In this document: positions 4,469 through 17,185 of the stretch, piece after piece
Layout: the number at the start of each line of letters is the position of its first letter
How positions within the stretch are numbered: position 1 is the stretch's first letter
Notes under the pieces: generated by a model
Databases searched by the model: none
What the model was told of the DNA's origin: nothing
Seen by the model: only the letters and a program-made list of their open reading frames with translations
Position numbers and translations under genes: made by a program
NCBI RefSeq assembly: GCF_004216695.1
Contig: NZ_SGXC01000002.1
Span: 558,001 to 622,000, forward strand
Direction: 5' to 3'
DNA from: Pigmentiphaga kullae
Lineage (GTDB): Bacteria > Pseudomonadota > Gammaproteobacteria > Burkholderiales > Burkholderiaceae_B
Length of the DNA stretch: 64,000 nucleotides

Positions 4469-5644
4469 TCATGGCGAGGCTCTCCAGGGATATTCGAGCT
4501 GCAGGGCGACGACGTCGGCGGTGCGGGCGCCGTAGCGTCCGGCGATGGCTTGCAGCGTTCGATCCAGGGCCTGGGCCGGGCGTTGGTCGGTGAAGGCGGC
4601 CATGTGCCTGGCCGAAGACAGGTCGGCCGGCGCCGCCTCCGGAATGACGCGAACCTTGTCGCGGGTCTCGATGGCTTGCGATGTAGCCGCGAACGAGACG
4701 GCCCGTGACCGGTAGGTGCGCGACCAGGCGTCGGCGACCAGGGCCAGCGAGACTTCGTCCATGCCGGACCGGAGTTCCACGCCTATCCGTTCCCGGTTCC
4801 AGAACGCCAGGACGTTGCCGAGCACGGTCGTCGCGAACGGCCTTGTCAGCTTGAAGGCATGGCTGGCGTGGCGGGCGTCCCACGCGGGCAGGCCCAGGTC
4901 GCGGGCCACCGCTTCGGCCTTCTGCCGTCCGGCCATGGCCTCGATCAGGATCAGCATCATGGGCATCGATGCGGAGATGCCGGTGCTGGTCGCAACGCCC
5001 CGGTCCGCCACCACGCGCCGGTCGGCCACGTAGGCGATCGACGGGTGCTTGTCCAGCATGTCCTGCAGGTAGTACCAATGCGTGGTCGCGCGCTTGCCGT
5101 CCAGCAGGCCGGCCGCGGCGACGACCTTGGCGCCCGCGCACACGCCCAGGATGATCGCGCCCTTGCGGGACTGGCCGCGCAGCCAGGCCAGCACGGCCGG
5201 ATCGTCGTCGCGGCTCATGGCGGGCACGATGACGTAGTCGGCGCCCTCCGGGTGTTGCGCGTCGAAGTGCGCGAGGGTGGCGTCGGCCTGGACGGTCAGC
5301 GCCGGGAAGAGTTTGACCGGCCCCGGCCCGGTCGCAAGCATCACGACGTCGGCCACGCCGGCGCGCCGCAGGATGCCGGTGGGCATCAGGTAGTCGGTGG
5401 TTTCGGTGGCATCGTTGATGCTCACGATTGCCACCAGTGGACGCCTGGGCCTGGGCGGTTTCAAGGCGGCCAGCATGGCGTCCATTTCCCCCGTTGCGAG
5501 AGGCGGCATGTCGGCCGGGGCAGACGCCGGCGGCAGGCTGTACGACCAGGCACCCAGGCCCGCCAGCGCCAGCAGGACGAGCGCCAGTGCACCCCGGATG
5601 ACATGACGGTTGAGCATGATCGGAATTCTCCGAGCCGTAGGCAT
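4469..5644 (-). CDS. Membrane-anchored DJ-1/PfpI-superfamily protein
   Basis: A 391-residue protein with an N-terminal membrane anchor (about 17-37), a proline-rich linker and a DJ-1/PfpI (class I glutamine amidotransferase-like) domain from about 68 to 245. The nucleophile-elbow cysteine is visible as GVCAG (C169), followed by the ATTHW stretch typical of the sensor half of GlxA regulators. Unlike GlxA it has no AraC DNA-binding domain; the last 140 residues are unassigned. It is divergent from a GlxA-type regulator at 5715 and probably shares its control region. M11 (5614) is an alternative start nearer the helix. Chemistry unknown; family members act as amidases, hydratases or sensors. Confidence 0.75.
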   Translation of the reverse strand: MPTARRIPIMLNRHVIRGALALVLLALAGLGAWSYSLPPASAPADMPPLATGEMDAMLAALKPPRPRRPLVAIVSINDATETTDYLMPTGILRRAGVADVVMLATGPGPVKLFPALTVQADATLAHFDAQHPEGADYVIVPAMSRDDDPAVLAWLRGQSRKGAIILGVCAGAKVVAAAGLLDGKRATTHWYYLQDMLDKHPSIAYVADRRVVADRGVATSTGISASMPMMLILIEAMAGRQKAEAVARDLGLPAWDARHASHAFKLTRPFATTVLGNVLAFWNRERIGVELRSGMDEVSLALVADAWSRTYRSRAVSFAATSQAIETRDKVRVIPEAAPADLSSARHMAAFTDQRPAQALDRTLQAIAGRYGARTADVVALQLEYPWRASP

Positions 5645-5679
5645 GGTTTGTCAGGTCTCAATCTACCCGCCTTGCGTCA

Positions 5680-5714
5680 TGGCGGAAATGTCAAAAATGT
5701 ATTAATTTCTGCCA
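5680..5714. promoter_or_regulatory. Inverted repeat between the divergent DJ-1 and GlxA genes
   Basis: TGGCGGAAAT at 5680-5689 and ATTTCTGCCA at 5705-5714 are inverted copies (nine of ten bases pair) separated by 15 bases. The right arm ends at the ATG of the GlxA-type gene. The position fits an operator through which that regulator controls itself and the divergent gene. Confidence 0.5.
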
Positions 5715-6680
5715 ATGCACCGCATCGTGTTCGTCGTCTATCCGGGTTTCGAGATTCTTGACGTGTCGGGGCCGGGCGCCGTCTTCAGCGGCGCCAATCG
5801 CGCCTTGGGCGGCGCCGATCCCTTCTATGGAATCGAACTGGCGTCCGCACGGGGCGGGCCGGTGCCCAGCAGCAGCGGCATCGTGGTCGACACGCAGCGC
5901 ATCGATGCGCTGCCTGCCCAGGCGGTCGGCACCTTGCTGGTCGTGGGGGCCGAGCGGGAACCGCTGCTGCGGGCGATGGCCGATCCGGCGTTGGGGCCGG
6001 GGCTCGCGCGGCTTGCCGGCGGGGCCGCGCGGTGGGGCTCGATCTGCTCCGGCGTCTTCATCCTGGCGGCGCTTGGCCTGGTCGATGGCCGCCGCGTCGC
6101 CACGCACTGGGATGCCTGCATGCCCTTGGCCAAGGCCTTTCCCAAGGTGGAGGTGGATGCCGATTCCCTGTATGTCGTGGACGGGAGCCTGTGGACGTCG
6201 GCCGGCGTGACGACCGGCATCGACATGAGCCTGGCGATGATCGCGGGCGACCTGGGCGCGACGATCGCCGGCGAAGTCGCGAAGCGGCTGGTGCTGTATG
6301 CGCGCCGCCCCGGATATCAATCCCAGTTCAGTCCCGTGCTCCAGGCGCAGGCCAGGGCCGACAGTCCCTTCGGCGATCTGATCGCCTGGATACAGGACCA
6401 TCTGCAGGAGCCGCTGGACGTGCCGGCGCTGGCCGCCCGCGCGGGGCTGGCCGAGCGCACCTTCCATCGCAAGTTCGTCGCCGCGACGGGCGTGACGCCG
6501 GCCCGCTACGTCGAGACCGCGCGGCTGGATGCCGCCCGCATGCTGCTGTCCCGGGGGCTGTCGTTGAAGTCGGTAGCGGTGCAGGTGGGGCTGTTTCCGG
6601 CGGCGCGATTCGCCGACGCGTTCGAGCGCCGGTTCGGAATGTCTCCCCGATTGTTCCGGGATATGCATGCCGGGGGATGA
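5715..6680 (+). CDS. GlxA-family transcriptional regulator (DJ-1/PfpI + AraC HTH)
   Basis: The 321-residue product has an N-terminal DJ-1/PfpI-like sensor half (about 1-175, with SICSGVF at the nucleophile elbow and RRVATHW after it) and a C-terminal AraC/XylS double helix-turn-helix (about 225-318, with AARAGLAERTFHRKF and a final RRFGMSP). GlxA-type regulators usually control catabolic or amine/choline genes next to them, so the divergent DJ-1 protein is the likely target. An imperfect inverted repeat ends exactly at this ATG, leaving little or no room for a ribosome-binding site, so the mRNA may be leaderless. A hairpin terminator follows the stop. Confidence 0.9.
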   Translation: MHRIVFVVYPGFEILDVSGPGAVFSGANRALGGADPFYGIELASARGGPVPSSSGIVVDTQRIDALPAQAVGTLLVVGAEREPLLRAMADPALGPGLARLAGGAARWGSICSGVFILAALGLVDGRRVATHWDACMPLAKAFPKVEVDADSLYVVDGSLWTSAGVTTGIDMSLAMIAGDLGATIAGEVAKRLVLYARRPGYQSQFSPVLQAQARADSPFGDLIAWIQDHLQEPLDVPALAARAGLAERTFHRKFVAATGVTPARYVETARLDAARMLLSRGLSLKSVAVQVGLFPAARFADAFERRFGMSPRLFRDMHAGG

Positions 6681-6707
6681 GTCAGGTCTTCCTGGCTCGA
6701 TGTCAAG

Positions 6708-6737
6708 GTGGACATTTCGTGGCCTGTCCACGTTTTT
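6708..6737 (+). terminator. Rho-independent terminator after the GlxA-type gene
   Basis: GTGGACA (6708-6714) pairs perfectly with TGTCCAC (6725-6731) around a ten-base loop and is followed by GTTTTT. It sits 28 bases after the regulator's stop codon. Confidence 0.65.
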
Positions 6738-6788
6738 CAGGGAATGAGAGGGTCGCATACTGTCGCCTCGCTTGCGTCCCTGCGCTGA

Positions 6789-6818
6789 CCTAATGGTTGT
6801 CGATTGACAACCATTAGG
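6789..6818. promoter_or_regulatory. Perfect 13-bp palindrome with 4-bp spacer (operator)
   Basis: CCTAATGGTTGTC at 6789-6801 is followed by GATT and then its exact reverse complement at 6806-6818. It lies directly before the two-gene HicA-like unit and contains that unit's -35 box. This is the usual layout of an autoregulatory toxin-antitoxin operator. Confidence 0.8.
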
Positions 6819-6832
6819 TTCGTCGCCATACT
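6804..6832 (+). promoter_or_regulatory. Sigma-70 promoter of the HicA-like/HTH unit
   Basis: TTGACA at 6804-6809, a 17-base spacer and CATACT at 6827-6832 form a good promoter. The -35 box overlaps the palindrome. Transcription should begin near 6839-6841, within a few bases of the first start codon, so the message would be nearly leaderless. Confidence 0.65.
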
Positions 6833-6841
6833 GGATCATCG

Positions 6842-7117
6842 TTGATGAATCGACCCACTCACCCCAAGAAGGATATCGAAGAATCGCTCAGGCATGCCGA
6901 ACGCCTGGGCTGGCGTGTGGAAGCAGGTGGCAGCCATGCCTGGGGAAGGATTTATTGTCCCTACAACGATGTCACTTGCCGCTGTGGTGAGTTCTGCATA
7001 GCCACTGTGTGGAGCACACCCAGGAGTCCCGGAAATCATGCGCGCGCCTTGAGGCGAGTAGTGGACAACTGTATATCGCATCGCAGGCAGCATGAATCCG
7101 GCGGCGTCGAGGAATAG
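6842..7117 (+). CDS. HicA-like small protein (toxin candidate)
   Basis: A 91-residue protein from TTG 6842, or 90 from ATG 6845. Its front half has the HicA pattern: an amphipathic helix, then GW (23-24) and GGSH (29-32), where the histidine is the catalytic residue in HicA mRNA interferases with the dsRNA-binding fold. It differs from classical HicA in a cysteine cluster right after it (C39, C46, C48, C52) and in a longer tail with a STPRSPGNHARALRR stretch. Four bases separate its stop from the next gene, whose ribosome-binding site lies inside this gene's end. Promoter and palindrome directly upstream support a toxin-antitoxin pair. The function is inferred from these features only. Confidence 0.6.
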   Translation: MMNRPTHPKKDIEESLRHAERLGWRVEAGGSHAWGRIYCPYNDVTCRCGEFCIATVWSTPRSPGNHARALRRVVDNCISHRRQHESGGVEE

Positions 7118-7121
7118 CACC

Positions 7122-7643
7122 ATGGACTACATCTTTACCCTGAAGTACCAGCTTACCGACGAAAGCTGTGACCCAGGCGCCTTGGTCGAGCGCCTGGGCG
7201 AAGCGGGCTGTGACGATGCCTTGGTCGGTATCGGGCAGCCAGGGCGCCTGGCGCTGGAGTTCACTCGCGAGGCAGCAGACGCCGAGACAGCCGTGCACAG
7301 CGCGTTGGACGATGTGCGCCGTGCCGCGCCGTCGGCCAGGTTGATCGAGGTGGCCCCGGATTGGGTCGGGCTGACCGACGTGGCGAACATCGCGGGGGTG
7401 TCGCGACAGAATATGCGCAAGCTCATGCTGGCGCATCCGGGCAGTTTCCCGGCTCCCGTGCACGAGGGCAGCACATCGATCTGGCACTTGGCGGACGTCC
7501 TGGCGTGGCTGCAAGCCAGGGGCGGCTATTCGTTGCCTGGCGATGTGATGGAGGTGGCCCGGGTGGCATTGAAGATCAACGTGGCCAGGGAAGGCCGCCG
7601 ATTGCCGCGCGCGGCATCCAAGGCCCTGGCCGCCCTGATCTAG
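7122..7643 (+). CDS. HTH partner of the HicA-like protein (antitoxin/repressor candidate)
   Basis: A 173-residue protein. The start at 7122 is preferred over an in-frame ATG at 7092 because GAGGAA (7109-7114) lies seven bases before it. The N-terminal 80 residues resemble a small alpha/beta domain of the HicB size class. Residues 84-132 form an AlpA/MerR-like winged helix-turn-helix (LTDVANIAGVSRQNMRK, then WHLADVLAWL). The gene follows the HicA-like gene by four bases, so the pair should be co-translated. It would be the antitoxin that binds the palindrome at 6789-6818. No close family name is recalled; the role comes from domain order and context. Confidence 0.6.
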   Translation: MDYIFTLKYQLTDESCDPGALVERLGEAGCDDALVGIGQPGRLALEFTREAADAETAVHSALDDVRRAAPSARLIEVAPDWVGLTDVANIAGVSRQNMRKLMLAHPGSFPAPVHEGSTSIWHLADVLAWLQARGGYSLPGDVMEVARVALKINVAREGRRLPRAASKALAALI

Positions 7644-8533
7644 ATTTCCGCTGGCGGCTGCTCCTGCGCCGCCTTCCTGTCCATCAACAAGCTATGCAGC
7701 ATCTCCGTCGACAACCCATGCAGCACCAGCCGATACCCCGCCCGCAGGGTCGACATCGGTACCAGCGGATGCTTGTTGTTGACCAGGATGAGATGCTCCG
7801 GCGCGCCCATCAGCCTGGCGGCGTAGATGCCGATGGTCTCGTCCAGCTGCAGCGAGTTGGCGGCACGCCAGAAGTCGTTGTCGGTCAGCATGAGCTGGTA
7901 CAGCGGCGTGAACAGTTCGATCGCGCTTTGCAGGTCCAGGAAGTTCAGCCGCGTATGCGGCATGTCCTCCAGCCGCAGGCCCGGGTCGCGGATCATGGAG
8001 AAGTCCACGCGGGCCGGCGGGTGCATCTCGACGCCGGCATCGCGCAGGGCCTGGTTCAGGCGGATGACGAAGTTGAACAGGTTCAGGTCGTGCTTGACGA
8101 ACAGGTCGTCCTTCAGGTCGTCGATGTTGCGCGGCTCCAGCGGCGTGGTGGTGATGGGTACCGGCGAGTTGGCCGCGATGAAGGCCAGGATCTGTGCCCC
8201 AAGATGAAAGTGCCGCAGGATCAGCCAGTTGGCCTCGGGCGAGACGAAGCGCGTCAGCCCCCACGCCAGCACGCGGTGTAGCAGCCGCGAATGCGACCAC
8301 TTGCGCGGCAGGAATATCTTCAGCACTTGGATCAGGATGATGAAGCCGCGCGCGATGGGGCGCAGCAGGGGCAGCAGGTACTGGCGCGAATTGCTGCTGG
8401 AATCGGTCAGCCAGCTTTTCTTGACCTCGTCGGGCAGGGGCGTGCTGCGGTCCAGGTACAGGGCCAGCCAGGGATTGGGGTCGGCGGGGTCGTGCGCCTG
8501 GGCCAGGAAGTCGGGGGTTTTTCTTTTTCTCAT
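7640..8533 (-). CDS. Uncharacterised protein, last gene of the KAS III-di-iron oxidase operon
   Basis: I do not recognise a family. The 297-residue product (start ATG 8533) has a polar N-terminus, one likely hydrophobic segment at about 53-76 and a mixed C-terminal part with several histidines (RHFHLG, then VKHDLNLFNF). It overlaps the stop of the KAS III-oxidase fusion gene by four bases (ATGA at 8530-8533), so it is translationally coupled to it. Coupling implies a product that works with the fusion enzyme: perhaps an acyl-transfer, cyclase or release step, or a membrane-attached partner. The gene also ends four bases into the convergent HTH gene. The larger open frame to 9043 is not used, since its front part is the shadow of the fusion gene. 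Confidence 0.7.
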   Translation of the reverse strand: MRKRKTPDFLAQAHDPADPNPWLALYLDRSTPLPDEVKKSWLTDSSSNSRQYLLPLLRPIARGFIILIQVLKIFLPRKWSHSRLLHRVLAWGLTRFVSPEANWLILRHFHLGAQILAFIAANSPVPITTTPLEPRNIDDLKDDLFVKHDLNLFNFVIRLNQALRDAGVEMHPPARVDFSMIRDPGLRLEDMPHTRLNFLDLQSAIELFTPLYQLMLTDNDFWRAANSLQLDETIGIYAARLMGAPEHLILVNNKHPLVPMSTLRAGYRLVLHGLSTEMLHSLLMDRKAAQEQPPAEI

Positions 8534-10446
8534 CGGGCCTCGTCCTCCATGACGTGGTGGAATTGCATCAGGTACAGGGCCGCGGTGTGGCGGGCGGTGT
8601 CGACGATGCGTTGGGCGGCGCGGCCGGTGGGGTCGCAGTCCAGGGCCAGTTCGACGGCAGCCAGCCAGCGGGCCAGGTGGTTTTCGTCGTTGTGGCCGTG
8701 GTATTCGAGGAAGCGGTAGGTGTCCGGCGGCAGCGACAGGCTGGCCTTGAGCAGCGGCAGCAGGGCGGGGATGATGCGCTGGCCGGTGCCTTCGATGATG
8801 TAGATGGCGCCCAGCAGGCCGATCGGGTCGCGCGTGGCGGCCAGGCCGTGCAGGTAGGCGTTCAGGGCCTCTCCGCCGGGATTGCGGCGCAGGGCGTCTA
8901 GGTCGGCGATGGCTCCGCCGGCGTTCCGGTAGTCCTGGAACAGGATCCTGAAGTCGTTCTGTTCTTCGCCCGCATGGGTCTCGATCAGGGCCGCCAGGGG
9001 CTGGTAGTCCGGCCCCAGCGAGGCCACGCCCTCGCGCATCCATTTGCTGCCTTCGCGGACCTGGGGAATCCAGTTCTCCATCCAGTTCAGGTAGTCGGCG
9101 GCCTGGAAGCGGCGGGTGCGCAGCTTGTGCACGACGGGGGTGCGCCAGACGCGCGAGCGGTAGTCGTGCCAGATCGAGGCCAGTTCGGTCAGCAGCGGCC
9201 CCAGTTCCGGCGATGCAGTGGCCGGGTCGTGGGGCGGGGCGATGGGGTCGGCATCGGGTGTGTCAGCCACGCGCGCAATGGGCGGGGCGACGGCCGCGGC
9301 GGGCGAGGCATCGGCGGCCTCTACTTCCCACAGCATGTAGGCGGTGGTGAAACGTCCGGACTCGGGGATGTAGCAAAGGATCTGCTGGCCGGGTTCGACG
9401 GCGCGCGTCTCCAGGAATTCGGCCAGCATGATCAGGATGGATGCGGCGCCGGTATTGCCGCGCCAGGCCAGGTTGCTGTACCAGCGCTCGTGCGGGATCT
9501 CCAGGCCGGCTTTCTCCAGCAGGTCCTTGACCACGGGGATGAATTTCTCGGACGAGTAGTGGCACAGGAAGTGGTCGATCCGATCGGACCGGACCCAGCC
9601 GTCCTGCGCGAGCCGGGCGTATTCGTGGATGCCGATGTCGAACAGGTGGGGCAGCAGGCGGATGTCCTGGCGCAGCGCCAGCGCGCCGTCGGCCTCCGCC
9701 TCGGTCCACGAGGGGTAGTCCAGGTGCACGCGTCCGCGGTCCGCCGACAGGCCCAGTTGCATGCATACCGGATAGTCGCCAGAGAACGAGCGCTGGTGCA
9801 CCCATTTCAGTTTCAGTCGCACGCCGCGCGAGGCGCCGGGCAGCGCCGATCCCGCGTTGCCCAGCAGTAGCGCGCCGGCGCCGTCCGACAGCATCCAGCG
9901 CAGGAAGTGGGAATCGAAGTCGGCGTCGTAGCCGCGGGCGGTGAAGCGCGACCGCTTGAACAGCCGCGAGGGCAGTTCGCTGGCCACGGCCAGGGCGCGG
10001 TCGTGGCCGCCCATTTGCACGGCTTGGGCGGCGGCCTGGATGGCCGAGACGCCGGCGGCGCAGATGCCGTGCACCGACAGCGTTTCCATGGGGTGGGCGG
10101 CCAGTTCGCCCTGGATCATGTTGGCGAAGCCGGGCATCAGGGCATCGCCGCCCGAACTGCCGCTGGCCAGCAGCGACACGTCGGCCAGCCGGGCGTCGGC
10201 GCGCCGCAGGCAGTCCTGGATGGCATGGACGGCCATCCTGGCGTTGCTGTAGACGGTGGCGCCTTCGCGGTCGATGGCGTAGTAGCGCTGCTTGATGCCG
10301 TTTTCGGCCAGGATGCGCTGCTTGATGCGTCCGGAGATGCGGTTCAAGGGCGCGATGTAGCGGTCCAGTTCGTCGTTGGACACCGGCTGGCCGGGCATGA
10401 AGTAGCCGGCGCTTTGCAGGTAGACGCGATCGAAGGCGATGGGCAT
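8530..10446 (-). CDS. Fusion of ketoacyl-ACP synthase III and haem-oxygenase-like di-iron oxidase
   Basis: A 638-residue two-domain enzyme. Residues 1-375 are a thiolase-fold KAS III (FabH-like) with all three catalytic residues: C129 (HGICAAG), H296 (LCHYSS) and N331 (GNTGAAS). An Ala/Pro-rich linker (380-412) joins it to residues 415-638, an all-helical domain of the iron-containing redox enzyme (HDO) type. Candidate metal ligands sit in ETHAGEE (489-495), IIEG (E552) and HGHNDENHLARW (H583, D587, H590). HDO enzymes perform oxidative decarboxylation, N-oxygenation or desaturation of small acids and amines. Together they could make a ketoacyl or longer acyl intermediate and oxidise it. The start at 10446 follows AGGAGAAT on the minus strand. 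A frame open further upstream is the desaturase shadow. Confidence 0.85.
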   Translation of the reverse strand: MPIAFDRVYLQSAGYFMPGQPVSNDELDRYIAPLNRISGRIKQRILAENGIKQRYYAIDREGATVYSNARMAVHAIQDCLRRADARLADVSLLASGSSGGDALMPGFANMIQGELAAHPMETLSVHGICAAGVSAIQAAAQAVQMGGHDRALAVASELPSRLFKRSRFTARGYDADFDSHFLRWMLSDGAGALLLGNAGSALPGASRGVRLKLKWVHQRSFSGDYPVCMQLGLSADRGRVHLDYPSWTEAEADGALALRQDIRLLPHLFDIGIHEYARLAQDGWVRSDRIDHFLCHYSSEKFIPVVKDLLEKAGLEIPHERWYSNLAWRGNTGAASILIMLAEFLETRAVEPGQQILCYIPESGRFTTAYMLWEVEAADASPAAAVAPPIARVADTPDADPIAPPHDPATASPELGPLLTELASIWHDYRSRVWRTPVVHKLRTRRFQAADYLNWMENWIPQVREGSKWMREGVASLGPDYQPLAALIETHAGEEQNDFRILFQDYRNAGGAIADLDALRRNPGGEALNAYLHGLAATRDPIGLLGAIYIIEGTGQRIIPALLPLLKASLSLPPDTYRFLEYHGHNDENHLARWLAAVELALDCDPTGRAAQRIVDTARHTAALYLMQFHHVMEDEAR

Positions 10447-10472
10447 GGGATTCTCCTGAAGGGCGCGGCGGC

Positions 10473-11396
10473 CTAGCGTGGCGTGGTCCGCGTCATCAGG
10501 GGCCGCGAGCGAAAGCGCGCGCTGAAGGTGCCCAGGATGAAGACGCGGAACATGTAGGGCGCGAGGCCGCGCTCGTTCAGCGTGGCCGGTACGCGGTGCC
10601 GGTAGCGCCGGTGGTGCAGGCGGGTCAGTTCGGACCAGTGGGCGCGCGAATGTTCGTGGTGGGCGGTGTGCAGGCCGATGTTGAACAGCAGCGGGTTGAC
10701 CAGTCCTTCGAAATTGCGGGCATAGCCCAGCGTGCGGCCACGCGCGGGGCCGCCGTCGGCATGCGCGTGTTGCAGGTAGTTGGTCGCCAGCAGCCAGTGC
10801 AGGCCATGCAATTGCGGCACGATCACGAACACCAGGGCCTTGACCGGGTTCAGCGCCAGGAGCCCGGCCCACAGGCCCAGCCAGGCGGCGTACTGGGCCA
10901 TGCAGTAGCGCCAGGCGCCGGGCCGGTGCCGGTACAGTCGGCATAGCCAGCGGAGGAAAGCGGGGTAGAGCACCCACACCGCCTGTACAGGGTGTGCCAG
11001 ATAGCCCCACAGGTGATTGGTGTCGCCGCCGAAGCGATAAGTGCGCGCGATGTCCTGCGGACCATGCCGGTGGCGATGATGGTTGGCCACGTGCGCGGGG
11101 TAGAACACGAAGGTCGGGTGTCCCTGCAATAGCGTGATCCAGAAATCGGTGGCGCGGTTGGCCCGGCGGCCACGCCACATCCGCACGTGGGTGTGGTTGT
11201 GGTGGATGACGCCTATGCCCAGGGTCAGGAACAGCATCAGCGCGTAGAGCGGCAGCGAAAATCCGTGGCGCCATTGCCAGGCGGCCAGTGCCGGCAGGGC
11301 GGCCAGATACAGCAGGCTCTGCCAGTCGCGGCGGTTGCGCAGGGTGGGCAGCAGGGGGCGTCCGCTATTCATGGCCGGCCGCGGTCCTGCGTTCAT
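10473..11396 (-). CDS. Membrane fatty-acid desaturase-family di-iron enzyme
   Basis: An integral-membrane protein of up to 307 residues with the histidine boxes of the fatty-acid desaturase family: HHNHTH (65-70), HVANHH (102-107) and HTAHH (243-247), plus QHAHA (209-213). These hold a non-haem di-iron centre that desaturates or hydroxylates acyl chains at the cytoplasmic face. M9 (11372) is an alternative start that would reduce the overlap with the upstream hydroxylase gene from 32 to 8 bases. Twenty-six bases separate it from the KAS III fusion gene downstream. Position in the operon suggests it acts on the acyl product of that enzyme or on its precursor. Confidence 0.88.
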   Translation of the reverse strand: MNAGPRPAMNSGRPLLPTLRNRRDWQSLLYLAALPALAAWQWRHGFSLPLYALMLFLTLGIGVIHHNHTHVRMWRGRRANRATDFWITLLQGHPTFVFYPAHVANHHRHRHGPQDIARTYRFGGDTNHLWGYLAHPVQAVWVLYPAFLRWLCRLYRHRPGAWRYCMAQYAAWLGLWAGLLALNPVKALVFVIVPQLHGLHWLLATNYLQHAHADGGPARGRTLGYARNFEGLVNPLLFNIGLHTAHHEHSRAHWSELTRLHHRRYRHRVPATLNERGLAPYMFRVFILGTFSARFRSRPLMTRTTPR

Positions 11397-12138
11397 GGGC
11401 CTTCAACACGAGCGCCGCCGCGTCGGCCTGCAGCCGGGTGCGGAACAGGCGGTCCATGAAGGTGAACTGGAACCCGTAGTTCCCGTTGAAGCAGGCATGG
11501 TGCAGATGGTGCCGGCGGCTGGCGGCGAACCAGTGGGCGTAGGACACCCGGGGGAAAAAGTCGTAGTTGGCGTGGCCGATGCAGTTGAAGAACAGGCTGA
11601 ACAACGGCACCGAGGCCAGCGACCAGAAGCTGAAGTCGTGCACCACCATGGGCAGCAGGATCACGTTGCCCAGCATCAGCGCCTCGACTGGATGGAAGCT
11701 GTAGGTCGAGAACGGCGTGGTGACGATGGAGCGGTGGTGGGGCAGGTGGAAACGGCGCAGCAGCTTCGTGTGCAGCAGGCGGTGGTTGATCCAGAAGTGC
11801 ACGTCGTTCCAGGCTACCAGGGCCAGGATTTCCAGGGCGATCTTCCCGCCGCTGGCGGCGGGATCCAGTCGGGCCCAGCCGAGTTGCAGCAGGCCCCACG
11901 GAAAGATCATGCCCGTGCCGAACAGCAGGATGGACATGCCCGACTGCAGCAACTCGCGGCGCAACTGGCCCGGCGCGAGCGGGCGGGGGTCCAGCGGGCG
12001 CCCCAGGCCCAGTGCGGGCAAGAGGCGGCGGGTAAGCAGCCAGGTCGCGGCGCCGAACAGCAGGTAGATACCACCGAAGAACAGCAGGCCTGCCAGCATG
12101 ACCTGCGATGCCGAGAGCTCCTGGAAGGCTTGGCCCAT
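11365..12138 (-). CDS. Sterol desaturase/fatty-acid hydroxylase-family membrane enzyme
   Basis: The 257-residue protein has several transmembrane helices and the eight-histidine pattern of the FA_hydroxylase/sterol desaturase superfamily: HFWINHRLLH (114-123), HLPHH (131-135), an isolated HANYDFFP (189-196) and HHLHH (210-214) followed by NYGFQFTFMDRLF. The enzymes bind two irons and insert oxygen into, or desaturate, lipid chains, carotenoids or alkyl ethers. It is the first gene of the four-gene operon and overlaps the desaturase. Substrate unknown. No sterol pathway gene is in view, so a fatty-acid or alkyl substrate is more likely. Confidence 0.88.
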   Translation of the reverse strand: MGQAFQELSASQVMLAGLLFFGGIYLLFGAATWLLTRRLLPALGLGRPLDPRPLAPGQLRRELLQSGMSILLFGTGMIFPWGLLQLGWARLDPAASGGKIALEILALVAWNDVHFWINHRLLHTKLLRRFHLPHHRSIVTTPFSTYSFHPVEALMLGNVILLPMVVHDFSFWSLASVPLFSLFFNCIGHANYDFFPRVSYAHWFAASRRHHLHHACFNGNYGFQFTFMDRLFRTRLQADAAALVLKAHERRTAAGHE

Positions 12139-14148: not shown

Positions 14149-14169
14149 ATGGAGTGCTTGCATGAGTGA
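14149..14169 (+). CDS. Possible six-codon leader ORF overlapping the start of the hydroxylase gene
   Basis: ATG at 14149, five bases after a strong AGGAGGAA (14136-14143), opens MECLHE and stops at 14167-14169. The hydroxylase ATG at 14162 lies inside it in another frame. The strong ribosome-binding site fits this small frame better than the large gene, so it may deliver ribosomes by termination-reinitiation. Confidence 0.35.
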   Translation: MECLHE

Positions 14170-17100
14170 CGCGAGCGTTCTGCCCGCGGCCGATGCGCCC
14201 TTCGTCGGGCGCCGGCAGGAGCGGGTCGAGGACACGGCGCTGCTGTCCGGGCGCGGCGCCTATGGCGACGATCTGCCGGTCAAGCCGGGCACGCTGCACG
14301 CCGCCATCCTGAGGTCGCCCCATGCCCACGCGCAGGTGCTGCGCATCGATACGGATGCCGCCGAGGCCCATCCGGGCGTCAGGGCGGTGCTGATGGGCAC
14401 GGACGTGAAGCGCTGGTCGCAGCCTTTCGTCGTGGGCGTGAAGTCCCCCATGGAGCATTGGTCGCTGGCCCAGGACCGGGTGCGCTACGTGGGCGAGCCG
14501 GTCGCCGTCGTGGTGGCCGAGGACCGCTATGTCGCCGAGGACGCGCTGGAGCTGATCCGCGTCGACTACGAGGTGCTGCCGGTAGCCGTGGAAATCGAGG
14601 CGGCCATTGCCGAGGATGCGCCGGTGCTGCATCCGGCGGTGGGCAGCAACGTCGTCAGCGACCGCAGCTTCAGTTATGGCGAACCGGACGCCGCCTTCGC
14701 CGCGGCCGAACACCGCGTCGAACTGACCGTCCACTACCCGCGCAACTCCTGCACGCCCATCGAAGGGGCGGTGGTGATCGCCGAACATCTGGCGGGCGAC
14801 GACGGCTACGAGGTCAGCTCCAATTTCATGGGGCCGTTCTCGCTGCATTCGGTCATGGCGCTGGCGCTGAAGATCCCCGGAACGCGTCTGCGCCACAAGC
14901 TGCCGCGCGACTCGGGCGGCAGCTTCGGCGTGAAGCAGAGCGTGTTTCCGTACGTGGTGCTGATGTGCCTGGCGTCCCGCAAGGCGGGCGCGCCCGTGAA
15001 GTGGGTGGAGGACCGCCTGGAGCACCTGGTGGCCGCGACCTCGGCGACGTCTCGCCTGTGCACGATCGAGGCGGCCGTGGACGGCGAGGGGCGGATCAGC
15101 GCGCTGTCCTACGACCAGTTCGATGACGTGGGCGGCTACCTGCGAGCCCCCGAGCCGGCCACGTTCTATCGCATGCACGGCTGCCTGACGGGCGCCTATG
15201 CGATTCCCAACCTGAAGGTGCGCAACCGCGTGGTGCTGACCAATCGCACGCCCGCCGGGCTGGTGCGCGGCTTCGGCGGCCCTCAGGTGTATTTCGCGCT
15301 GGAACGCCTGGTGCAGCGCATCGCGCAGCAACTGGGCATCGATCCGCTGGTGGTGTACCGGCGCAATTTCGTGCAGCCCGGGGCGTTTCCCTACCGCGCG
15401 GCGGCCGGCGCCTTGCTGGACTCCGGCAACTATCCGCTGGCGATCGAGATGGCCGGGCGCGAAGGCGGGCTGGACGAACTGCTGCAACGGCGCGACGCCG
15501 CCAGGGCAGAGGGCAGGTTGTACGGCATCGGCTATGCCGCGATCGTGGAGCCTTCCATCTCCAACATGGGCTACATCAGCACGGTCATGACGGCGGAGCA
15601 GCGCGCCAAGGCCGGCCCCAAGAACGGCGCCACCGCCAGCGCCACCGTCGGCATCGACCCGCTGGGCGGGGTGACGGTGGTGGTGGCTTCCTCGCCGGCG
15701 GGGCAGGGGCACATGACGGTGTGCGCGCAGGTCGTCGCGGACGTGTTCGGCCTGGTGCCGCAGCAGGTGACCGTGAACGTGGACTTCGACACGCAGAAGG
15801 ATGCCTGGTCGGTCGCCGCGGGCAATTACTCCAGCCGCTTCGCCGGCGCGGTGGCGGGCACGGTGCATCTGGCGGCCAGCCGGCTGCGCGACAAGGTGGC
15901 GCGCATCGTCGCTCATCAACTGGCGTGCGATCCGGCCGATGTGGTGTTCGCCGGTGGCAAGGTGGGCCTGCCGGACGTGCCGGGCAAGATGCTGGCGTTC
16001 GCGCGCGCGGCCAGCAGCGCGCACTGGGCGCCGGGACAGTTGCCGGAGGGCGAATCGCCGGGGCTGCGGGTGACCGAGTTCTGGACGCCGCCCCAGTTGA
16101 CCGCGCCGGACGAGCAGGACCGTGTCAATACTTCCGCGGCCTACGGATTCGCCTTCGACATCTGCGCGGTCGAGATCGACCGCGACACCGGACGCGTGCG
16201 CATCGATCGCTACGTCACCACGCACGACGCGGGCAAGCTGCTCAACCCCGCGCTGGCGGACGGCCAGATCCGTGGGGCCTTCGCCCAGGGGCTGGGTGCC
16301 GCGCTGATGGAGGAGTTCCGTTACGCCGGAGACGGCAGCTTCCAGTCCGGTACCTTCGCCGATTATCTGGTGCCGACCACCTGCGAGGTGCCGGACCCCG
16401 TCATCGTGCACCTGGAAACGCCGTCGCCGTTCACCCCGCTGGGGGCCAAGGGGCTGGGCGAGGGCAACAACATGAGCACGCCGGTGTGCGTGGCCAATGC
16501 CGTCGCCGATGCCCTGGCGCCGATCCGGGGCGCCTGCGACGTCCGGCTGCCGCTGACGCCGCTCAAGGTCATGGAGCTGATCGGGTTCGACGATCCGCCG
16601 CCCAGCGGCGGCGCGCGCGCGGCCTCGGCGCCGTCCGCGAGTCCCGCCGCGCCGGGAAGCGGCTCGGGCAAGGCCCTGTCCGCCACCGGCAGCGTGCAGA
16701 TCGCCGCGACGCCCGAGGTCGTCTTCAACGTGCTGCTCGATCCGCAGGCCCTGGCCAAGGTAGTGCCGGGCTGCCATTCGCTGGAGGCAATCGGCGAGAA
16801 CCGCTATCGCGCCGACGTGACGGTGGGCGTGGGCATGATCAAGGCCCGCTACGCGGCCGAGATCGCGCTGTCGGAACTCGATCCGCCGCATTCCCTGCGC
16901 CTGGCCGGTTCGGGCAGCTCGTCGCTGGGCGCGGCGCGCGGCAGCGGCAAGGTGCGGCTCGAGCCCAACGAAGGCGGCACGCGCCTCGTCTACGACTACA
17001 GCGCCGAGGTCAGCGGCAAGGTGGCCGCCGTGGGCAGCCGGATGCTGGAGGGAGCGGCCAAGATCGTCCTGGCGCAATTGTTTGAACAACTGGGCCGGCA

Positions 17101-17185
17101 GGCCAGCGGGCAGCCGGCCCGGGCCGGATCGCGCGGCTGGTGGCGCAAGCTGCTGGCGCTGTTCGGATGGAGGGGGGCGGCATGA
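14162..17185 (+). CDS. Xanthine dehydrogenase-family molybdopterin subunit fused to a CoxG/SRPBCC domain
   Basis: The 1007-residue large subunit binds molybdopterin cytosine dinucleotide and hydroxylates a substrate with water. Residues about 20-130 are the a/b hammerhead domain and 145-800 the cofactor domain, with the catalytic glutamate in AKGLGEGNN (E767). After an Ala/Ser/Pro linker comes a CoxG-like SRPBCC domain (about 838-985), normally a separate membrane-recruitment protein in CO dehydrogenase clusters, then a basic/hydrophobic tail. The CO dehydrogenase signature AYxCSFR is absent; the matching place reads GLVRGFGG, so an organic substrate (aldehyde, aromatic or N-heterocycle) is likelier. 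It overlaps the FAD-subunit gene by four bases. Confidence 0.88.
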   Translation: MSDASVLPAADAPFVGRRQERVEDTALLSGRGAYGDDLPVKPGTLHAAILRSPHAHAQVLRIDTDAAEAHPGVRAVLMGTDVKRWSQPFVVGVKSPMEHWSLAQDRVRYVGEPVAVVVAEDRYVAEDALELIRVDYEVLPVAVEIEAAIAEDAPVLHPAVGSNVVSDRSFSYGEPDAAFAAAEHRVELTVHYPRNSCTPIEGAVVIAEHLAGDDGYEVSSNFMGPFSLHSVMALALKIPGTRLRHKLPRDSGGSFGVKQSVFPYVVLMCLASRKAGAPVKWVEDRLEHLVAATSATSRLCTIEAAVDGEGRISALSYDQFDDVGGYLRAPEPATFYRMHGCLTGAYAIPNLKVRNRVVLTNRTPAGLVRGFGGPQVYFALERLVQRIAQQLGIDPLVVYRRNFVQPGAFPYRAAAGALLDSGNYPLAIEMAGREGGLDELLQRRDAARAEGRLYGIGYAAIVEPSISNMGYISTVMTAEQRAKAGPKNGATASATVGIDPLGGVTVVVASSPAGQGHMTVCAQVVADVFGLVPQQVTVNVDFDTQKDAWSVAAGNYSSRFAGAVAGTVHLAASRLRDKVARIVAHQLACDPADVVFAGGKVGLPDVPGKMLAFARAASSAHWAPGQLPEGESPGLRVTEFWTPPQLTAPDEQDRVNTSAAYGFAFDICAVEIDRDTGRVRIDRYVTTHDAGKLLNPALADGQIRGAFAQGLGAALMEEFRYAGDGSFQSGTFADYLVPTTCEVPDPVIVHLETPSPFTPLGAKGLGEGNNMSTPVCVANAVADALAPIRGACDVRLPLTPLKVMELIGFDDPPPSGGARAASAPSASPAAPGSGSGKALSATGSVQIAATPEVVFNVLLDPQALAKVVPGCHSLEAIGENRYRADVTVGVGMIKARYAAEIALSELDPPHSLRLAGSGSSSLGAARGSGKVRLEPNEGGTRLVYDYSAEVSGKVAAVGSRMLEGAAKIVLAQLFEQLGRQASGQPARAGSRGWWRKLLALFGWRGAA

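Follow-up and report, generated by a model that had tools for sequence, protein, structure and literature searches.

We examined a stretch of 64,000 nucleotides from Pigmentiphaga kullae (positions 558,001-622,000 of contig NZ_SGXC01000002.1; hereafter the window) and, within it, an operon of four genes on the minus strand that run, from 12138 to 7640, in the order membrane hydroxylase, membrane desaturase, fusion of a ketosynthase with a haem-oxygenase-like dimetal oxidase (HDO) domain, and DUF6999 protein. The operon is maintained as a unit in Burkholderiales, and a core of ketosynthase, HDO and DUF6999 occurs outside that order too. The features are as follows, with residue ranges of the domains approximate and pLDDT denoting the predicted local distance difference test score.

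11365-12138, minus strand: FA_hydroxylase-family membrane-type protein, 257 amino acids (reading frame and Pfam match); accessory, seen only in Burkholderiales
10473-11372, minus strand: FA_desaturase-family membrane-type protein, 299 amino acids (reading frame and Pfam match); accessory, seen only in Burkholderiales
8530-10446, minus strand: fusion protein, 638 amino acids, of StlD/DarB-like ketosynthase, linker and HDO domain
9319-10446, minus strand: ketosynthase domain of the fusion, residues 1-376, with Cys129, His296 and Asn331
9205-9318, minus strand: variable linker of the fusion, residues 377-414 (pLDDT below 50 at 385-403)
8533-9204, minus strand: HDO (Haem_oxygenas_2) domain of the fusion, residues 415-638 (Pfam match)
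7640-8533, minus strand: DUF6999 protein, 297 amino acids, with an all-helical model; the partner most constantly found with the ketosynthase and HDO

A sequence-only reading of the window had placed four open reading frames (ORFs) at 7640-12138, and all of them are present there. The first two genes overlap by 8 nucleotides (or by 32, if the desaturase begins at an alternative start at 11396 that adds 8 codons), the second and third are separated by 26 nucleotides, and the third and fourth overlap by 4 nucleotides (ATGA). A scan for promoters and terminators gave results near chance (1 found against 0.7 expected, and 2 against 1.8 expected), and no family of repeats of at least 20 nucleotides could be distinguished from chance.

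A scan of genome contigs yielded 209 stretches coding for a protein related to the fusion, the best 80 of which were kept for locus counts; the closest named relatives, at 95-96% identity, are from Alcaligenaceae bacterium SAGV5, a Burkholderiales metagenome-assembled genome and Pigmentiphaga sp. NML030171. By TBLASTN, all four genes were found in the same order at 77 of the 80 loci. In the Burkholderiales loci read the genes are thus kept together, a check that the sequence-only reading had itself proposed. The three exceptions lack the desaturase (L089), the hydroxylase (L090), or both the hydroxylase and DUF6999 (L097). We also took ORFs of at least 100 amino acids from five query loci and searched for them in the 80 loci, shorter genes being outside the scope of this comparison; beyond the four genes and ORFs overlapping them, no ORF of that size recurs in more than 29 of the 80. 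The ratio of nonsynonymous to synonymous substitution rates (dN/dS) for the four genes was 0.050-0.202 in all 16 gene-by-locus comparisons, made against four loci. All four genes are under purifying selection, and the operon is a selected unit.

When a profile of the ketosynthase-HDO protein was applied at E ≤1e-40 to 300 Burkholderiales genomes (that of P. kullae included), 19 genomes matched, 13 with full-length fusions and 6 with a ketosynthase only. For 12 of these fusions (all but that of G892, with G013 represented by locus L039 on the same contig) we examined the neighbourhood, and DUF6999 follows the fusion in each of the 12. Both hydroxylase and desaturase are present in nine of these neighbourhoods and the hydroxylase alone in two (L149 and L150), and in the remaining one (L151) the desaturase match spans two frames and the hydroxylase is missing. 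In G021 (locus L111) the ketosynthase is split over two frames, and neither hydroxylase nor desaturase gave a match. Within the genus of P. kullae, a full fusion is present in 5 of 10 other genomes.

Searching with DUF6999 alone gave positives in 5 of 299 genomes of the phylum, in 6 of 385 genomes of the class of G261 (the second class, which we infer to be Alphaproteobacteria) and in 7 of 369 genomes of the class of P. kullae, amounting to 15 different genomes, and in 13 of these 15 the ketosynthase, HDO and DUF6999 genes are adjacent. A DUF6999 match, and a match only, was also obtained in the control genome of Caulobacter vibrioides, and a search of plasmids with DUF6999 returned one Pseudoalteromonas record (L118), whose HDO has no PF14518 match. 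The ketosynthase and HDO are separate adjacent genes at all six second-class loci and at Pseudoalteromonas L118, L168 and L169, and they share one frame at L166, which belongs to the class of P. kullae and to a different order. In the stretches read of these ten loci, the hydroxylase and desaturase gave no match at E 1e-3. We therefore rejected the fusion as the hallmark of the system, and the description of the operon as "built around" it does not hold, because the same ketosynthase and HDO are encoded elsewhere by two neighbouring genes. The trio of ketosynthase, HDO and DUF6999 forms the core, which also occurs outside Burkholderiales, mostly as separate genes; DUF6999 is the partner kept most constantly, and the hydroxylase and desaturase are dispensable. 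Three further observations concern individual loci. An apparently membrane-bound protein of 182-185 amino acids without a Pfam match lies directly upstream of the ketosynthase at L118 (12621-13178) and L168 (2626-3171), the two copies sharing 67% identity; the DUF6999 gene of L167 (8889-9947) adjoins a transposase-like ORF (10181-10912); and at L106 a fusion of major facilitator superfamily (MFS), acyltransferase and AMP-ligase parts (4697-8098, 1133 amino acids) lies directly downstream of the trio, in this one genome.

The sequence-only reading had called the ketosynthase domain a β-ketoacyl-acyl carrier protein synthase III (KAS III), correctly naming its catalytic triad of Cys129, His296 and Asn331, which is present and aligned to that of StlD. 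Pfam reports ACP_syn_III_C in the fusion at 36.8 bits, and among NCBIfam models the StlD/DarB family (NF005293) scores best at 323 bits, followed by DarB at 256 and FabH-type models at no more than 77. Among sequences in the Protein Data Bank (PDB), StlD was found at E 1.7e-60 and the next relative at 9.9e-10. The structural model of the fusion has a mean pLDDT of 85.3 and a predicted template modelling score (pTM) of 0.61, and with it Foldseek ranked StlD first, with template modelling (TM) scores of 0.87-0.91 over StlD. In a tree of 35 rows, the ketosynthases of this system (hereafter module ketosynthases) group together with DarB against FabH with support of 100/100. By these four lines of placement a generic KAS III was rejected: the domain is StlD/DarB-like, its relatives being ketosynthases of 1,3-cyclohexanedione pathways, and a product of that type is predicted. 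Three further module ketosynthases scored 322, 361 and 372 bits against NF005293, and three true DarB proteins 567-614 bits. Head-to-head ketosynthases of the OleA/PpyS type are described in PMC4578411 as having a catalytic Glu that precedes the Cys in sequence (in PpyS, E105 before C129); at that spacing from Cys129, and judged by spacing only, the fusion reads Leu103-Met104-Pro105.

The StlD and DarB ketosynthases, of the stilbene and dialkylresorcinol pathways respectively, are thus the closest known proteins in both sequence and fold. DarB and StlD carry out cyclohexanedione chemistry, which is reportedly the subject of a 2013 paper by Fuchs, to go by its title. The same chemistry is treated in passages of PMC3992019 and PMC3949708, the former also giving the background of the dar pathway. 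The six Burkholderiales loci with a ketosynthase only resemble dar loci, three of them supplying the DarB proteins scored above, and share a DarB-type ketosynthase with the operon; unlike the operon, all six carry a DarA-like gene upstream, within about 1.1 kb of darB. The name DarA-like is provisional, being taken from position and from a table in PMC3949708, and none of these ORFs was named by a library model. The one dar locus checked for it has a BtrH-like neighbour, as described for Azoarcus in PMC3949708, whose table includes ABC transporter genes as well. The module has no conserved extra gene of this kind; its ketosynthase instead has an HDO, fused or neighbouring, and DUF6999 beside it. 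A search for DarA among loci L021-L158 gave matches at the six dar loci only and at no module locus (L166-L169 lay outside this search), and a search of the P. kullae genome, run without a positive control, detected none.

The oxidase domain matches Pfam Haem_oxygenas_2 (PF14518) at 39.7 bits against a cut-off of 28.9, and its candidate metal ligands are E465, H491, E495, D498, E552, H583, D587 and H590. Its only sequence relative in the PDB is 3dde (E 1.3e-13 with a profile), an uncharacterised protein whose title states no function. In alignment to 3dde the pattern of E-x2-H, E and H-x3-D-x2-H lines up, but the fusion has E495-x2-D498 where 3dde keeps E-x2-H. The same holds in comparison with the HDOs UndA, CADD, SznF, BesC and FlcD: E552 and H583-x3-D587-x2-H590 are in their usual places, and E-x2-H is replaced by E-x2-D. 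Seven of the candidate ligands (H491, E495, D498, E552, H583, D587 and H590) are identical in 99 of 99 module sequences, while position 465 is E in 95, D in 3 and Q in 1; with L166, L168 and L169, whose HDOs show the module's residues, E-x2-D is found in 102 of 102. Four unfused HDOs from related genomes, which resemble one another, have His, Tyr and His at positions 465, 491 and 498, and the rest of the pattern is kept in them, apart from Arg at 590 in L156; 3dde has His at positions 465, 491 and 498. We considered H491 as a module-specific replacement and rejected it, because 3dde has His there too (the four unfused HDOs have Tyr), whereas E465 and D498 are special to the module in these comparisons. 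In PMC11363339, an E-H-X-H-D/E-H motif is reported for about 85% of the HDO groups analysed, and the module departs from it, reading E495-D498-E552-H583-D587-H590 instead; passages of PMC11965152 give general ligand counts only. The model of the fusion shows a helix break between 495 and 498. The "full set of candidate ligands" claimed from the sequence is therefore only partly correct, with Asp498 standing where E-x2-H has its His.

This substitution raises the question of whether the domain carries out dimetal chemistry at all. It could instead be mononuclear, non-redox or structural, leaving only the ketosynthase and DUF6999 as catalysts, which would accord with the change of the canonical His to Asp in 102 of 102 sequences and with FlcD, for which PMC11363339 indicates that a changed ligand set can accompany mononuclear iron. 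The seven metal-type residues, unchanged across all 99 sequences, suggest, on the contrary, that metal binding has been kept, and we consider such a loss quite improbable. Also bearing on the HDO is the possibility of a linear beta-keto product from the ketosynthase, which the oxidase would cleave or decarboxylate in a UndA-like reaction to yield an alkene, a ketone or a shortened chain, with the desaturase and hydroxylase modifying the chain beforehand. An HDO domain with a fatty-acid desaturase and hydroxylase adjacent fits such a route, UndA being a fatty-acid HDO according to the review PMC13108848; we nevertheless regard it as unlikely, as the ketosynthase is StlD/DarB-like and not FabH-like, the only PDB relative of the HDO by sequence is 3dde and not UndA, and the ligand set is unlike the motif reported for UndA in PMC11363339. 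N-oxygenation is another known HDO reaction (PMC13108848), and the domain might act on nitrogen once an amino acid or amine has been added to the chain. With no further gene of at least 100 amino acids conserved with the four in most loci, there is none to bring in an amine, and the ligands are unlike those given for characterised HDOs in PMC11363339, so that we find this very improbable.

DUF6999 (PF22523) was matched at 439.5 bits against a cut-off of 27, over positions 1-274 of the 275 in the profile, and is of unknown function by its Pfam description. Over 22 sequences, down to 29% identity, the invariant polar residues are D18, D28, R50, N102, R107, H108, N122, H148, D149, D200, N226, D231, N253, H255, R268, H272 and E277. 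The model (pLDDT 88.1, pTM 0.87) is nearly all helix, and several of the conserved His and acidic residues sit on its helices 99-122, 144-166, 229-242 and 262-291; their placement in the model suggests a metal or acid-base site. The model had no match in the PDB at E 0.001 (best 0.89, TM 0.17), and a DUF6999 profile found nothing among PDB sequences at E 1. We rejected the idea that DUF6999 is a diverged HDO, as profile comparison gave it a probability of 0.2%, and we did not accept the HDO-fold chains in its Foldseek list (PolF, a TenA-like protein and PqqC; E at least 1.2, TM 0.11-0.17). A PHDP motif is conserved in the fusion linker (about 9205-9318), and an HDPxDP-like stretch stands at the DUF6999 N-terminus in most rows.

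The two membrane-type proteins match FA_hydroxylase (PF04116; 77.5 bits against a cut-off of 31) and FA_desaturase (PF00487; 80.2 bits against 29.7), and neither had a PDB relative at E 0.1. Their His clusters, read against what we take to be the His-box patterns of these families, are H114xxxxH119xxxH123, H131xxHH135 and H210H211xH213H214 in the hydroxylase, and H58xxxH62, H94xxxHH99 and H235xxHH239 in the desaturase. Two membrane-type oxidases might indicate that the operon modifies a structural lipid of the membrane or envelope instead of making a diffusible metabolite. The lack of an exporter among the genes (ORFs of at least 100 amino acids) conserved in most loci would agree with this, as would the MFS-acyltransferase-acyl-ligase gene next to the trio in the one genome. 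Outside Burkholderiales, however, the loci read have the trio with neither membrane oxidase, and presence is patchy, with the full-length fusion in 13 of the 300 Burkholderiales genomes; we judge a structural role rather unlikely.

The reading that we tentatively prefer, at a confidence somewhat short of even, is that the operon directs biosynthesis of an oxidised small molecule or lipid from fatty-acid-synthase units, by DarB-like condensation, then HDO oxidation, then DUF6999. The StlD/DarB-like domain would join two acyl thioesters, most likely into a 2,5-dialkylcyclohexane-1,3-dione or a closely related beta-dicarbonyl. The HDO domain would oxidise this product with O2 and a metal centre, at the point where dialkylresorcinol pathways use the aromatase DarA, and DUF6999, possibly a metalloenzyme, would perform the next step or work with the HDO. 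In Burkholderiales, the membrane hydroxylase and desaturase may decorate the alkyl chains or a membrane-held product. Because a DarB-like condensation is predicted, no DarA lies beside the module, and an O2-type oxidase is tied to the ketosynthase by fusion or adjacency, an HDO in the place of DarA is the simplest reading.

Several observations weigh against it. All four module ketosynthases scored, including that of the fusion, fall below the 450-bit cut-off of NF005293, and a module clade separate from DarB has support of only 74/48, so that the ketosynthase reaction may differ from that of DarB. The canonical HDO His is missing, and HDO activity is thus not assured. The operon itself has no acyl carrier protein, the flanking-gene comparison having taken in only ORFs of at least 100 amino acids. 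L097 carries the fusion without DUF6999; in the 17 kb read of G1022 (L167), DUF6999 is present and neither ketosynthase nor HDO gave a match; and in G1002 (L170) the ketosynthase and DUF6999 are fragmentary and no HDO was matched.

In a more ambitious version, which we think fairly unlikely, the module would be a new branch of the DarB type in which an altered-ligand HDO replaces the aromatase and converts the cyclohexanedione into a ring or ring-opened lipid not seen before, DUF6999 would be a new metalloenzyme family with an unseen fold, and the trio would define a natural-product class across Pseudomonadota. The sequence-only reading had proposed an undescribed operon for a modified fatty-acid-derived product; the families fit and the genes stay together, whereas its ketosynthase type, its use of the fusion as the defining feature and its ligand set needed revision. 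We found no characterised enzyme of the kind of the fusion, and in the open-licence literature nothing was found on DUF6999 (the term was absent) or on this gene set. Passages of an Acinetobacter DtpC paper (PMC13232832) gave no link to the operon.

Elsewhere in the window, two small overlapping plus-strand ORFs of 91 (6842-7117) and 183 (7092-7643) amino acids, neither with a Pfam match, form a pair that we presume to resemble a HicA-like toxin-antitoxin pair; upstream of them is a perfect 12-nucleotide inverted repeat (6790-6801 and 6806-6817). A divergent pair at 4469-6680 encodes a DJ-1/PfpI protein and a DJ-1/PfpI-AraC regulator, and at 14162-17185 the large subunit of a molybdopterin-dependent dehydrogenase has a CoxG domain fused at its C-terminus.

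If the preferred reading of a DarB-like condensation followed by HDO oxidation is correct, it would represent an O2-dependent route from such a condensation to new lipids, and it would give Pfam DUF6999 its first functional context. It would also provide an HDO subgroup with altered ligands, in which to test how the ligands set cofactor and reaction. Because genera that can be cultured, Variovorax and Achromobacter among them, have the four-gene form, and DUF6999 has its match in C. vibrioides, the product would be open to direct search.

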